A stretch of 64,000 nt of DNA from Dissulfurimicrobium hydrothermale (GTDB lineage: Bacteria; Desulfobacterota; Dissulfuribacteria; Dissulfuribacterales; Sh68), in contig NZ_CP085041.1 of NCBI RefSeq assembly GCF_022026155.1, forward strand, positions 900,306 to 964,305. The letters run 5' to 3'. The translations under genes and the position numbers were made by a program. A model generated the notes under the pieces. The model did not search any database. It was not told where the DNA came from and worked only from the letters and a program-made list of their open reading frames with translations. Below are positions 21,097-26,827 of this stretch, piece after piece (within the stretch, counting starts at the first letter, position 1; every line of letters starts with the position of its first letter).

Positions 21097-21363
21097 TGAG
21101 ATAACCCCTTGAAAATTTAGAATTTTTTAGAAAAATTTAGAAAAATTTCGATCATATATTTATGATCACGATATGATTGTGTAAGGTTTAAATTGATAAC
21201 CAGATAAACATGATATGTCAAGGAAAGCATTAAATTTTGTGCGACATACCCACATCGTGAATATGTGTAAAGGGTTGATTTGGCGGTTTAGAACCGCTTG
21301 ACAAAGCAAAAAACAACATGTTAACACAGAGATCAAGTCTAAATTTACACAGGAGATCTTTCG
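21097..21363. other. AT-rich divergent region with tandem 10-mers and near-DnaA boxes (possible origin or complex promoter)
   Basis: Between divergent rpmH and porC. Four consecutive 10-bp units (AAAATTTAGA, ATTTTTTAGA, AAAATTTAGA, AAAATTTCGA) run from 21113 to 21152. They are followed by the perfect inverted repeat GATCATA-TATT-TATGATC (21150-21167). TGTGTAAAG (21264-21272) and ATTTACACA (21343-21351) match the DnaA box TTWTNCACA in 8 of 9 positions, and TGTGTAAGG (21179-21187) in 7 of 9. A TTGACA with a weak TTAACA 17 bp on (21298-21326) may be the porC promoter. dnaA is not nearby, so an origin is only a possibility. Confidence 0.4.
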
Positions 21364-22392: not shown

Positions 22393-23571
22393 ATGGCTAA
22401 ACGAGTAGGGATAGAGGTTTCGATAGCGGTAGCAGAGGCAGTCAGGCTGGCTGATGTGGATGTCGTGCCTGCGTATCCTATTACGCCCCAGACGCATATT
22501 GTGGAGCATCTGTCGGAATTTGTCGCAAACGGCGAGCTTGACGCTGAATTCATACCTGTGGAATCAGAACATGCAGCTATGAGCTGTTGCTGCGGCTCCT
22601 CAGCAGCAGGGGCGAGGACATTTACGTCTTCGAGCTCTCAGGGTCTTTCGCTTATGAGCGAGATACTTTATCACCCTGGCCCCATGAGGCTTCCCATAGT
22701 CATGGTGGTGGCGAACAGGGCGCTGGCTGCACCGATCAGTATATGGAACGACCATCAGGACATAATGGTTCAGAGGGATATAGGCTGGATACAGACATTT
22801 GCGGAAAACGGGCAGGATGCCTTTGATCTTACGCTTCATGCCTTCAGGGTTGCAGAAGACCGTAGGGTTTCACTCCCCATGATCGTCAATATTGACGGTT
22901 TTACCCTGAGTCATGTCATAGAACCGATCGAGATATTGAGCAAAGAAGAGGTTGGCAGGTTCCTGCCGCCCTTTAAGCCGCGTTTCCGTTTGGACACCAA
23001 AAAGCCTATATCTATAGGGCCTGTGGGCGTGCCAGAGGTCTACACAGAGGCGAAGGTGGCGCACAACGAGGCGCTAAAGGCGTCGAAAAGGGTGATTGTC
23101 CAGGCATGGAAGGAGTTTGCCAACCTCTTTGGCCGTCAGTATAATCCTGTCGAGACATACCGCAGTGAAGATGCAGAGGTCATCCTGGTTACTATGGGCA
23201 GCATCTCTGAGACGGCCATGACCGCTGTCGACGCCATGCGGGATGCAGGCCAGAAGGTGGGTCTTGTCAGGATACGCCTCTGGAGACCGTTTCCTGGTCC
23301 TGAATTTAAAAAGGCGATTGGTAAGGCCGGGGTGCTTGCAGTAATAGACAGATGCCTGCCACCTGGTGCGGTATGTGGTCCCGTAGGCGCCGAACTCAGA
23401 AGTCTATTCTATAAGGTGCCAGGGGCACCGAAGATATTCAGCTTCGTGGCCGGTCTAGGCGGCCGCGATGTGACAGTTGACCGCTTTAAAGAGATCGTTG
23501 AGAAGGCCAGGACATATGCAAAGAGACGTCCTGTTGAAAATTATGAAGTTATAGGGGTGCGCGAACAATGA
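22393..23571 (+). CDS. porA: Pyruvate:ferredoxin oxidoreductase, alpha subunit
   Basis: A 392-residue subunit carrying the N-terminal pyrimidine-binding part of the TPP site (AYPITPQTHIVE, VESEHAAMS, SSQGLSLMSEILY). These motifs are those of pyruvate enzymes rather than 2-oxoglutarate ones. The complex oxidises pyruvate to acetyl-CoA and CO2 with reduction of ferredoxin, or runs in reverse for CO2 fixation. It overlaps porB by four bases. Confidence 0.94.
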   Translation: MAKRVGIEVSIAVAEAVRLADVDVVPAYPITPQTHIVEHLSEFVANGELDAEFIPVESEHAAMSCCCGSSAAGARTFTSSSSQGLSLMSEILYHPGPMRLPIVMVVANRALAAPISIWNDHQDIMVQRDIGWIQTFAENGQDAFDLTLHAFRVAEDRRVSLPMIVNIDGFTLSHVIEPIEILSKEEVGRFLPPFKPRFRLDTKKPISIGPVGVPEVYTEAKVAHNEALKASKRVIVQAWKEFANLFGRQYNPVETYRSEDAEVILVTMGSISETAMTAVDAMRDAGQKVGLVRIRLWRPFPGPEFKKAIGKAGVLAVIDRCLPPGAVCGPVGAELRSLFYKVPGAPKIFSFVAGLGGRDVTVDRFKEIVEKARTYAKRRPVENYEVIGVREQ

Positions 23572-24506
23572 TACCTGAATTTGAAAAATTTAAGGGTTTC
23601 TCGGCAAAAAATCTTCCAAAAGACGAGCCGTTGGCCTCGGGCCATAGGGCATGTCAAGGATGCGGAGAGGTCTTGGCCTTGAGGATGGTGATGAAGGCCC
23701 TTGGGCGCGAGGTTATCGTATGCAATGCCACCGGCTGCATGGAGATCATTACCACGCCGTTTCCCCAGACGGCCTGGAATGTGCCGTGGATACATGTCGC
23801 ATTCGAAAATGCGGCGGCCGTGGCCTCCGGGGTCGAGGCTGGCAGGAAGGTCTTAATGCGCAAGGGCAGGATCCCAAAGAGGCATATTGACATATTGGCC
23901 GTAGGCGGAGATGGTGCGACTGGTGATATCGGACTTCAGTGGATATCCGGGGCCTTTGAGCGCGGACATGACCTCCTCTATGTCTGCCTGGACAACGAGG
24001 CATATATGAATACAGGCATCCAGCGTTCCGGCTGTACACCCTATGGGGCCATGACAACCACGAGCCCTCCAGGCAAGGAGAGTTTTGGACAGGTGACGTG
24101 GAAAAAGAATATCCCTGCCATCATGGCGGCCCACGGTATCCCTTATGTGGCCACGGCATCACCGGCCTATTATCTTGATCTCATGAACAAGGTCAAAAAG
24201 GCGGCGTTGGTGAAAGGGCCGGCATACGTCCATATCTATTCCCCATGTCCGACTGGATGGGGTTCCGCAGGGGACAAATCAGTGGAATATGCACGTCTTG
24301 CAGTTGAAACAAAGGTCTTTCCGCTCTATGAGGTTATAGAAGGTCGCTATATTATAAGTCGCAAGATCACGAAGCCCAAGCCGGTAAGCGATTATTTGAA
24401 AGGGCAGCGCCGTTTCCGTCACTTGACAGATGAGCAGATTTCTTATATTCAAAACAGAGTAGATACAGAGTATGAAAAGATAGTAAAATTGGCTGAAATG
24501 AGTTAA
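23568..24506 (+). CDS. porB: Pyruvate:ferredoxin oxidoreductase, beta subunit
   Basis: A 312-residue TPP- and [4Fe-4S]-binding subunit. Cluster cysteines lie in CQGCGEV and CNATGC near the N-terminus and a further Cys in the C-terminal half. The TPP-Mg motif is GDGATGDIGLQW followed by DNEAYMNTG. It is last in the operon, and the strong hairpin at 24564-24602 may be its terminator. Confidence 0.95.
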   Translation: MIPEFEKFKGFSAKNLPKDEPLASGHRACQGCGEVLALRMVMKALGREVIVCNATGCMEIITTPFPQTAWNVPWIHVAFENAAAVASGVEAGRKVLMRKGRIPKRHIDILAVGGDGATGDIGLQWISGAFERGHDLLYVCLDNEAYMNTGIQRSGCTPYGAMTTTSPPGKESFGQVTWKKNIPAIMAAHGIPYVATASPAYYLDLMNKVKKAALVKGPAYVHIYSPCPTGWGSAGDKSVEYARLAVETKVFPLYEVIEGRYIISRKITKPKPVSDYLKGQRRFRHLTDEQISYIQNRVDTEYEKIVKLAEMS

Positions 24507-24563
24507 TTTAGTTTTAATAAATAAATGCAATCACAACCTGTTCCAGCCGTAAGACCTGTTGGC

Positions 24564-24602
24564 AAAAAAGGCCTCCTTCATCTCAAAAAGGAGGCCTTTT
24601 TT
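24564..24602 (+). terminator. Intrinsic terminator/attenuator hairpin directly upstream of pyrB
   Basis: AAAAAAGGCCTCCTT (24564-24578) and AAGGAGGCCTTTTTT (24588-24602) form a perfect 15-bp stem with a 9-base loop and a built-in U run. The stem ends four bases before the pyrB ATG, and its 3' arm contains GGAGG, the only Shine-Dalgarno-like sequence for pyrB. It can therefore be the por operon terminator, a pyrimidine attenuator, a translation switch, or more than one of these. Confidence 0.8.
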
Positions 24603-24606
24603 TAGG

Positions 24607-25536
24607 ATGAATCGCCTCTCGTCAAGACACATACTGAGCATCTCCGACTTGGGCCAAAAAGATATAGAGCTTATACTTGATACGGCTGATTCATTAAGCC
24701 AGATATTGACAAGACCCATAAAAAAAGCGCCCCCCTTAAGGGGTCGCACCATTGTCAATCTGTTTTTTGAACCTTCTACCCGGACGAGGCTCTCTTTTGA
24801 GCTTGCAGCAAAACGTCTAAGCGCCGATACGGTCAGCGTTTCGGCTGCGGCGAGCAGTGTCGTGAAGGGCGAAACCCTGATAGATACGGCTAAAAACATA
24901 GAGGCCATGAGACCTGATGTCGTCGTGCTCAGACACCCTTGTTCGGGCGCTTCTCATTTGATGGCGAGATATATGGAGAGGGCGGCGGTAATAAACGCTG
25001 GAGACGGTATGAACGAACATCCAACCCAGGCCCTTCTCGATCTTTTTACCGTGAAAAGGCATCTTGGCAGGCTTTCAGGTCTTAAAGTAGCCATTATAGG
25101 CGATATCGCGCACAGCCGCGTAGCCCATTCGGATATCAGGGCCTTTGCCAAGATGGGAGCGGATGTATTTGTGTCAGGCCCTGCCACCATGTTTCCCTCT
25201 CAGGTCGAGGCATTGGGGGCGACCGTAGTTTTAAGGCCTGAGGATGCCATTAAAGAGGCTGATGTGGTTATGGCGCTTCGTATCCAAAAAGAGCGGCAGG
25301 GAAGATCTTTAATACCAGGCGTCAGGGAGTATGCATCAGTCTATGGCCTTACGTCAGAGAGGCTTAAACTTGCCAGGCCTGGAGCGATAGTCATGCACCC
25401 AGGCCCGGTAAACCGCGGTGTGGAGATAGCGCCCCAGGTGCAGGATGGGCCGTTTTCGGTCATCCTTGATCAGGTGACAAACGGCGTAGCGGTCAGGATG
25501 GCCATTTTGTCGCTTATACTCCCTGAAACGGTTTGA
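24607..25536 (+). CDS. pyrB: Aspartate carbamoyltransferase catalytic subunit
   Basis: Joins carbamoyl phosphate and aspartate in pyrimidine synthesis. Carbamoyl-phosphate loop STRTR is at residues 57-61 (FFEPSTRTRLSF), with HPCSGAS, HPTQALLDLFT and the C-terminal HPGPVNRGVEI. ATG 24607 gives 309 residues, the family length; the frame is open upstream to 24559, but that part runs through the terminator hairpin and is not protein-like. The pyrC start follows after seven bases. No regulatory subunit pyrI is present. Confidence 0.96.
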   Translation: MNRLSSRHILSISDLGQKDIELILDTADSLSQILTRPIKKAPPLRGRTIVNLFFEPSTRTRLSFELAAKRLSADTVSVSAAASSVVKGETLIDTAKNIEAMRPDVVVLRHPCSGASHLMARYMERAAVINAGDGMNEHPTQALLDLFTVKRHLGRLSGLKVAIIGDIAHSRVAHSDIRAFAKMGADVFVSGPATMFPSQVEALGATVVLRPEDAIKEADVVMALRIQKERQGRSLIPGVREYASVYGLTSERLKLARPGAIVMHPGPVNRGVEIAPQVQDGPFSVILDQVTNGVAVRMAILSLILPETV

Positions 25537-25543
25537 GGTTGCA

Positions 25544-26827
25544 ATGAGGCCAATATTTTTGCAGAACCTCAGGATATTAGACCCTGAAACGAGGCTGGAT
25601 GTCACTGGAGATATCCTTATCATGGATGGCCGTATAGCTGCGATCGGGGATGAAATTTCTCCGCCTGACGACGTTCGTATGGTGGACTGTAGTGGCATGT
25701 GGGCGGCCCCAGGGCTGATGGACATGCATGTCCATCTAAGAGAGCCTGGTGAGGAATATAAAGAGACCATCGAGACCGGGACGTTGGCCGCTGTGGCAGG
25801 TGGCTTTACGGCTGTTGCCTCTATGCCGAATACAAATCCGGTAAATGATACATCTGCTGTCACGAGGTTTGTTATCGAACGGGCTATAAGCGCCGGATAT
25901 GCCTCTGTGTACCCTGTTGCATCTATAACAAAGGGGCTTAAGGGTAAAGAGCTTTCCGAATTTGCCGATCTTATGGGGGCTGGCGCCGTAGCCTTTTCGG
26001 ACGACGGCTACCCAGTCTCGGACCCAGGTATGATGCGCCTAGCCCTCGAATATGCGAAGGGTTTGGGGGCGCTCATCATTTCTCATGCAGAGGAATTGGC
26101 ACTTTCGAGCGGGGGGGTCTTGAATGAAGGTAGGATCTCGACCATCTTGGGACTTAAGGGCATACCGAGTGCGGCTGAAGATATAGCTGTTTTCAGGGAC
26201 GTGTGTCTTGCCGAATTTACAGGCGCCAGGCTTCACATAGCCCATGTGAGCACAATTGGCGCAGTCCAGATCATAAGACAGGCAAAGGCGATGGGTGTGA
26301 AGGTTACCGCAGAGACTGCTCCACACTATTTCAGTCTTACCGAAGAGGCTGTCTTGGGTTATGACGTCAATGCCAAGGTGAATCCGCCCTTGAGGACCGA
26401 GGAGGACAGGCTTGCGGTAATCGATGGATTAAGAGACGGTACGATAGATGTGATAGCGACTGATCACGCCCCACACAGCATCCTTGAAAAGGAAAAGGAG
26501 TTTGAGACGGCGGCGAACGGGATGATAGGTCTCGAGACCGCACTGCCGCTCGCGCTTGAGCTCGTAAGGGCCGGGGTCTTGACCCCTCTTGAATTGATAA
26601 GGCGTATGTCCCTTAATCCACGGAAGATACTTGGTATTCAGGGCGGCCGTATTAAACCTGGTGGGGCGGCCGATCTATGCGTCATAGACCCGGAGGCCAT
26701 GTTTGTTGTAAACAGGGAAAACCTGAGGTCCCGCAGCTTGAATACCCCGTTTCTCGGCAAGACGCTCAAAGGCAGGGCGGTTCTGACCGTCTCATGCGGC
26801 AAGATCGTACATAATCTTTTGTGGTAA
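25544..26827 (+). CDS. pyrC: Dihydroorotase
   Basis: A zinc amidohydrolase closing carbamoyl-aspartate to dihydroorotate. The 427-residue type I enzyme has the metal motif MDMHVHLREPG, the SDDGYPVSD and HIAHVST segments and TDHAPH. It follows pyrB closely and ends one base before the convergent manC stop, so no room is left for a terminator between them. Confidence 0.96.
   Translation: MRPIFLQNLRILDPETRLDVTGDILIMDGRIAAIGDEISPPDDVRMVDCSGMWAAPGLMDMHVHLREPGEEYKETIETGTLAAVAGGFTAVASMPNTNPVNDTSAVTRFVIERAISAGYASVYPVASITKGLKGKELSEFADLMGAGAVAFSDDGYPVSDPGMMRLALEYAKGLGALIISHAEELALSSGGVLNEGRISTILGLKGIPSAAEDIAVFRDVCLAEFTGARLHIAHVSTIGAVQIIRQAKAMGVKVTAETAPHYFSLTEEAVLGYDVNAKVNPPLRTEEDRLAVIDGLRDGTIDVIATDHAPHSILEKEKEFETAANGMIGLETALPLALELVRAGVLTPLELIRRMSLNPRKILGIQGGRIKPGGAADLCVIDPEAMFVVNRENLRSRSLNTPFLGKTLKGRAVLTVSCGKIVHNLLW

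Follow-up and report, generated by a model that had tools for sequence, protein, structure and literature searches.

A conserved terminator-like hairpin enclosing the Shine-Dalgarno sequence of pyrB as a putative ribosome-controlled attenuator in Dissulfurimicrobium hydrothermale and its relatives

Dissulfurimicrobium hydrothermale Sh68T is described in PMC8780430 as an anaerobic thermophilic sulfur disproportionator with a circular chromosome. The window analysed here is a stretch of 64,000 nucleotides, corresponding to positions 900306-964305 of a single contig of 2,025,450 bases. Open reading frames (ORFs) and NCBIfam profiles give the local gene order as porB, a gap, pyrB and pyrC, all on the plus strand. 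porB, encoding the beta subunit of pyruvate ferredoxin oxidoreductase, occupies 23568..24506 (PRK11865, above cut-off) and ends in a stop codon at 24504-24506. pyrB encodes the catalytic subunit of aspartate carbamoyltransferase, the enzyme of the second step of pyrimidine synthesis, and occupies 24607..25536 with a start codon at ATG 24607 (PRK00856, 395.7 bits against a cut-off of 263; also TIGR00670). The dihydroorotase gene pyrC (25544..26827; TIGR00857, above cut-off) begins 7 nt downstream of pyrB and presumably shares its transcript.

The gap between porB and pyrB contains an intrinsic-terminator-like hairpin at 24564..24602 on the plus strand, identified from sequence, folding and a window-wide scan, with a stem beginning 57 nt downstream of the porB stop codon. 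The arms AAAAAAGGCCTCCTT (24564-24578) and AAGGAGGCCTTTTTT (24588-24602) form 15 base pairs around a 9-nt loop (24579-24587), a T run extends over 24597-24603, and the end of the stem leaves four bases before the pyrB ATG. The presumed Shine-Dalgarno sequence of pyrB, GGAGG at 24590..24594 on the plus strand, lies within the 3' arm, its end 12 nt upstream of the ATG, a long distance for Shine-Dalgarno spacing. Both the 15-bp stem with its U run four bases from the start codon and the enclosure of GGAGG in the 3' arm had been put forward in the original prediction and are confirmed. The folding z-score of the region is -3.25, an equally good fold arising in 2 of 200 shuffles, and the predicted energy of the hairpin alone is -20.7 kcal/mol at 37 °C and -16.0 kcal/mol at 50 °C. 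In a read-through RNA, GGAGG is predicted to be unpaired with a probability of at most 0.001 at 37-60 °C. By a single criterion applied to both strands it is the strongest T-run hairpin in the window (-20.7 on the plus strand and -23.1 on the minus strand), and hairpins at -18 or better numbered 0, 0, 0, 1 and 0 in five shuffled windows. Being a near palindrome, it could also terminate transcription of the minus strand. A simpler hairpin scan with a loop limit of 8 left out the pyrB hairpin, presumably because of its loop of 9. The pattern CCTCCTT..AAGGAGG..TTTTT occurs in a single place in the 2,025,450-base genome, with both strands searched. T-run hairpins at -12 or better were listed ten times in the window, two of the listings being the pyrB hairpin, compared with 1-7 in shuffles. 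Given the few strong T-run hairpins in the window, intrinsic terminators may play only a small part in the D. hydrothermale genome.

Regions upstream of pyrB were compared across the order in 42 of 46 genomes, the D. hydrothermale genome included. Four genomes lacked a usable pyrB start and were left out (G009, with a partial pyrB, G021, G034 and G044), and G009, outside the count of 42, still shows the hairpin in a pattern search. A CCTCC/GGRGG-type hairpin with a T run is present within 300 nt upstream of pyrB in 39 of the 42 regions; it was not found in L020 or in L121, which has a different hairpin, and L023, matched by sequence alone at -290, is kept outside the 39. GGRGG ends 12-15 nt before the pyrB start in 28 of the 42 regions, with or without porB upstream, and the hairpin does not abut pyrB in 14. 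The spacing is exactly 12 nt in 25 of the 42, that of D. hydrothermale among them, and seven of these 25 have GGGGG, which replaces GGAGG, paired via U-G, in 10 of the 39 hairpins. A pattern search of 47 genomes gave matches in 30 of them at 32 distinct places, 30 of which lie upstream of pyrB and two away from it (G005:C6:46565 and G030:C58:971), and the backwards pattern, used as a control on the 47 genomes, gave 0 matches. The pair outside the stem core is GC in 32 hairpins, GT in three, AT in three and TA in one, a standard pair in 39 of 39, and an inner stem pair is TA in 31, CG in four, TG in one and unpaired in three. Stem substitutions mostly preserve pairing, as judged from counts in which the stem core was preselected by the search and the sequences are related to each other. 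In L006 (genome G030), the sequence reads ATAA where its relatives read ATGA, which may represent a pyrB start at ATA or an assembly error; the automatic choice of TTG was replaced there by the ATA that aligns with the ATG of the relatives.

Many relatives possess both a promoter-like motif and a leader ORF in front of pyrB. The motif TTGAC[TG]-18-TA is present 121-136 nt upstream of pyrB in 16 of the 42 order regions (a 17th match, in L126, falls inside porB and was excluded), and an ATG lies 7-12 nt downstream of the -10 element in 15 of the 16. In 14 of the 16 motif-bearing regions, the hairpin is spanned by a leader ORF with a stop codon that overlaps the pyrB start, usually as GGC-ATGA. 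Thirteen of these 14 ORFs open at the promoter-proximal ATG (7-10 nt), and that of L018 opens at a later one. The distance from the leader ATG to the pyrB start is 89 nt in eleven regions, 83 nt in L016 and L019, and 71 nt in L018, and the frame of the leader relative to pyrB is identical in all 14; in L007, two cancelling indels, recognised by eye, preserve the leader end. The exceptions are L120, where the stop falls in the loop, and L032, where it falls just before the hairpin and a second small ORF runs through the hairpin. In nine tested sequences with a leader ORF, drawn as one or two members per genus, the chance of such an ORF was 0.13-0.51 per sequence, so the argument rests on recurrence and the shared frame rather than on single cases. 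The pN/pS ratio of the leader peptide is 0.55 in g3 and 0.66 in f2, compared with 0.72-1.04 in the other frames (L007 excluded), suggesting that selection on the peptide sequence is weak at best. A T run of 5-7 lies between the leader start and the 3' arm in 15 of 18 regions examined, as a raw count.

In the window, a leader ORF of 26 codons, MQSQPVPAVRPVGKKGLLHLKKEAFF, extends over 24525..24605 on the plus strand and spans the whole hairpin, its TAG stop (24603-24605) lying one base before the pyrB ATG (TAG-G-ATG). The same design was read in G001, the sole other member of the family returned, where the leader MQLKHTAATGFVGIKKPPSIQKGGFFLV has a stop codon overlapping the pyrB start (ATGA). 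The view in the original prediction that no leader peptide was obvious is therefore revised, since this ORF passes through the hairpin and its design is repeated in many relatives. The chance probability of such an ORF is 0.27 in the window and 0.14 in G001, and the leader ORF of the window taken alone is not significant. Its ATG lies 18 nt behind porB in the window, and the corresponding distance in G001 is 13 nt. A weak promoter candidate, TTGGCT-18-TTTAAT, was picked by motif score at 24489..24518 on the plus strand, 6 nt before the leader ATG, and is not convincing: it scores -2.7 compared with 12.9 to 23.9 for the motif of the 16 relatives, 0.9% of window positions score as well, and 9-of-12 sites arise in 35% of shuffles of the stretch. 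No promoter resembling the motif of the relatives was found in the window upstream of pyrB, and a looser scan of the window with that motif returned one site, at 21221 on the minus strand. A U-rich tract before the terminator is also absent, the longest T run being 2 in the window, 3 in G001 and 2 in G004.

Gene order differs among the families of the order. porB lies upstream of pyrB in f1, the family of the window (2/2), f5 (3/3), f9 (15/17) and one region of f11, and also in f6 (G006, and G014 by eye) and f3 (by coordinates). The original prediction had named absence of the hairpin from close relatives with the por-pyrB order as evidence against itself, and the hairpin is kept in such relatives. 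porB was not found upstream of pyrB in 16 regions of f2, f4, f7, f8 and f10, in at most 600 nt of sequence (a shorter stretch in L005, L009 and L010) and with a short-motif finder that missed G003, which is por-linked by coordinates, and G014, which has a porB-like end by eye. A query of 12 genomes returned porB for 11. In ten of them it is separate from pyrB; the eleventh, G003, is por-linked, has a porB end that the script did not find and is not counted among the ten unlinked loci. The CCTCC/GGAGG hairpin is absent from the 220 nt after porB in all ten unlinked loci, where the same scan gave other terminators at six porB ends and none near the stop at four. As the hairpin is present at pyrB in the absence of porB and missing after unlinked porB, it goes with pyrB and does not travel with porB. 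The coupling of por termination to pyrB initiation, which the original prediction took to be the essence of the element, is for the same reasons not upheld. The pyrB tree does not resolve the branching order of the families, so either the por-linked or the unlinked arrangement may be the ancestral one.

These observations bear on the possibility that the hairpin simply terminates the por operon and adjoins pyrB by coincidence, pyrB being transcribed through it or from a promoter that escaped notice. The hairpin core follows the porB stop at a distance of 10-21 nt in the 14 f9 regions measured, and four f9 regions (L021, L115, L116 and L117) keep the hairpin 13-19 nt behind porB, where a plain por terminator would sit, with pyrB 81, 120, 126 or 243 nt away from it. 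The hairpin nevertheless precedes pyrB in 16 members that possess their own promoter-like motif and in which porB was not found upstream, ten of these being the genomes with porB elsewhere. In addition, PMC4824070 shows that a translated stop codon partly represses a nearby terminator, up to about 27 nt away in the system studied there, so translation of por could partly suppress termination in f9. A plain por terminator was rejected as the main reading on the grounds that the hairpin goes with pyrB and not with unlinked porB, and it is considered unlikely overall, although possible for the f9 members in which the hairpin lies far from pyrB.

Enteric bacteria are known to attenuate pyrB by means of a translated leader. 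For pyrBI, PMC5021804 and PMC4824070 describe a mechanism in which leader translation is tightly coupled to transcription. A script similar to that used here recovers E. coli pyrL as an ORF that crosses the terminator and stops 3 nt short of pyrB, compared with a gap of 1 nt in the window. The contrast with E. coli pyrBI drawn in the original prediction was hence too strong, as the E. coli leader also crosses its terminator and ends against pyrB. The target gene is the same, and a U-rich tract in the leader is common to E. coli and the 15 of 18 regions noted above. The tract lies 78 nt upstream of pyrB in E. coli, whereas it falls in the 5' arm and loop of the hairpin in f2 and f10 and is absent in the window. 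The E. coli Shine-Dalgarno sequence lies between the hairpin and the ATG rather than within the 3' arm of the terminator, and the E. coli leader ATG lies 138 nt before pyrB, compared with 71-89 nt in the order relatives. The E. coli leader ATG is moreover 25 nt after TATAAT and is preceded by GGAGG, whereas the 7-12 nt between the -10 element and the leader ATG in the order relatives leave no room for a Shine-Dalgarno sequence. Unlike in E. coli, the element is sometimes joined to por. The promoter spacing suggests that the leader mRNA is nearly leaderless, in which respect it would resemble trpL of Sinorhizobium meliloti, described in PMC7298713 as a leaderless leader-peptide attenuator with an mRNA that begins at or near the leader ATG; trpL, however, serves an amino-acid biosynthesis (trp) operon. 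The window possesses, by sequence, a predicted intrinsic terminator before pyrB and a leader ORF through that terminator; it is not assigned to the pyrBI type because it lacks the U-rich pause tract, but it probably works like the pyrBI attenuator.

The hairpin, the leader ORF and the likeness to pyrBI together led to the adoption of ribosome-controlled attenuation combined with a Shine-Dalgarno lock. It is thus rather likely that the hairpin serves specifically as an attenuator of pyrB(C), controlled by a leader ribosome, and also hides the Shine-Dalgarno sequence. The hairpin, its conservation, its specificity for pyrB, its presence without por and the design of the ORF are read from the sequences, and in vivo the mechanism would entail termination, leader translation, a UTP signal, re-initiation and a near-leaderless start. 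With no ribosome following RNA polymerase closely, the hairpin would form and the T run would bring transcription to an end, while RNA that escapes termination would refold with the pyrB Shine-Dalgarno sequence buried. By analogy with pyrBI, UTP is the likely signal: low UTP would slow the polymerase, so that a ribosome on the leader ORF stays close behind it and keeps the 5' arm open, allowing the polymerase to continue into pyrB. This ribosome would stop on or against the pyrB start (through the ATGA overlap, or TAG-G-ATG in the window), exposing the Shine-Dalgarno sequence, and may re-initiate on pyrB. In the family of the window, the leader ATG, 13-18 nt behind porB, would be within reach of ribosomes that have just finished porB.

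Several observations count against control by a leader ribosome. The hairpin is retained in f9, where none of nine regions has an ATG leader ORF reaching pyrB. Ten por-linked regions, these nine and L026 (G006), together have 0 ATG ORFs to the pyrB start, with about two expected by chance. In favour of leader control, on the other hand, an ORF opening at GTG crosses the hairpin of G006 and reaches the pyrB start, and G007 has two consecutive ORFs. The window lacks the U-rich tract and the promoter of the relatives and has an ORF expected by chance at the probability given above, and the first leader ORFs of L120 and L032 do not pass the hairpin, stopping within or ahead of it. In the f9 regions L012, L017, L024, L025, L027-L031 and L114 (L029 lying outside the f9 chance test), the hairpin with the presumed ribosome site abuts pyrB and no leader ORF opens the hairpin.

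An attenuator run by PyrR or another RNA-binding protein, rather than by a translating ribosome, would share with the element a terminator-like hairpin before a pyr gene, and 41 of 47 genomes, that of D. hydrothermale included (G000:C1:1230576-1231100), encode a PyrR-family protein that passes the cut-off. The Rfam PyrR element (RF00515), however, was found in 0 of 60 genomes, compared with 3 of 14 control genomes; this search applied stricter filters and a ceiling of 47 scored candidates for each genome, so that weak or odd elements could have escaped it. An Rfam search of the window returned no match, and by eye no other block between promoter and hairpin is conserved across families. The original prediction had likewise noted no obvious PyrR-like element, in agreement with this search, and protein-run attenuation is judged quite improbable. 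The hairpin might instead act as a translational lock only, hiding a Shine-Dalgarno sequence that leader translation frees, with negligible termination. The predicted pairing of GGAGG at 37-60 °C is consistent with such a lock, and the overlap of stop and start codons would favour re-initiation, but a pure lock has no need of the T run that follows every counted stem (the search itself required a T run), and this version is likewise judged quite improbable. A pyrB start at the in-frame TTG 24559, giving a protein that reads through the hairpin, has very little probability: the pyrB frame is open from -54 as an ORF of 325 aa and six f2 regions (L005, L008-L011 and L013) have an in-frame TTG at -57, but there is no start in the pyrB frame upstream of the hairpin in L004, L006, L007, L014, L015, L016, L018 and L022 or in the f9 regions L012, L017 and L024, and PRK00856 matches the ATG form from its residue 7 onwards. 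Lacking conservation outside part of f2, the extended start was rejected.

Across the phylum, taken here to be Desulfobacterota, pyrB was identified in 156 of 198 genomes. Sixty further upstream regions were drawn from other families, at least one for each listed family with a match, in addition to eight taken earlier. A terminator-like hairpin is present upstream of pyrB in 17 of these 60 regions, with none in 43 by the same scan, and the hairpins of two of the 17 (L182 and L220) look internal to the upstream gene. At least three (L085, L099 and L101) of 78 regions outside the order (L034-L112 without L036) have a terminator before pyrB, a lower bound because some regions are short upstream and the scan missed L016 and L018, which have a T run of 5. 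All five listed members of f20 (L125, L190, L221, L222 and L223) possess a CCCCCTCG/CGAGGGGG hairpin before pyrB and a leader ORF of 29-31 codons, at 86, 89 or 92 nt, that ends on the pyrB start (ATGA). f20 therefore has the same attenuator design as the order with another hairpin sequence. ORFs through hairpins are also present in L168, L170, L188, L202, L213, L214, L226 and L124. In L182 (G076, family f42), L122 and L131, pyrB is immediately preceded by a gene that resembles, by eye, the C-terminal part of PyrR; in D. hydrothermale, unlike in these three, pyrR and pyrB lie apart.

Judging from titles and abstract openings, none of the open-access papers among the matches listed describes this pyrB element, and the main text of an attenuator survey (PMC2965389) makes no mention of pyrimidine, aspartate, Deltaproteobacteria or Desulfovibrio. 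It is tentatively proposed that a compact pyrBI-like attenuator exists across part of the phylum, in which the mRNA would start at about the leader AUG, one hairpin would serve as both terminator and Shine-Dalgarno lock, a single ribosome would have to open that hairpin and, in por-linked lineages, the switch would have come under the por operon. Such an element would be a natural minimal case of a hairpin governing transcription and translation together, and the f20 hairpin, alongside that of the order, makes an ancient as opposed to a repeated origin of pyrB leader control testable. If the proposal is correct, pyrimidine synthesis in the por-linked lineages, including D. hydrothermale, would be tied to translation of the pyruvate-oxidoreductase mRNA.
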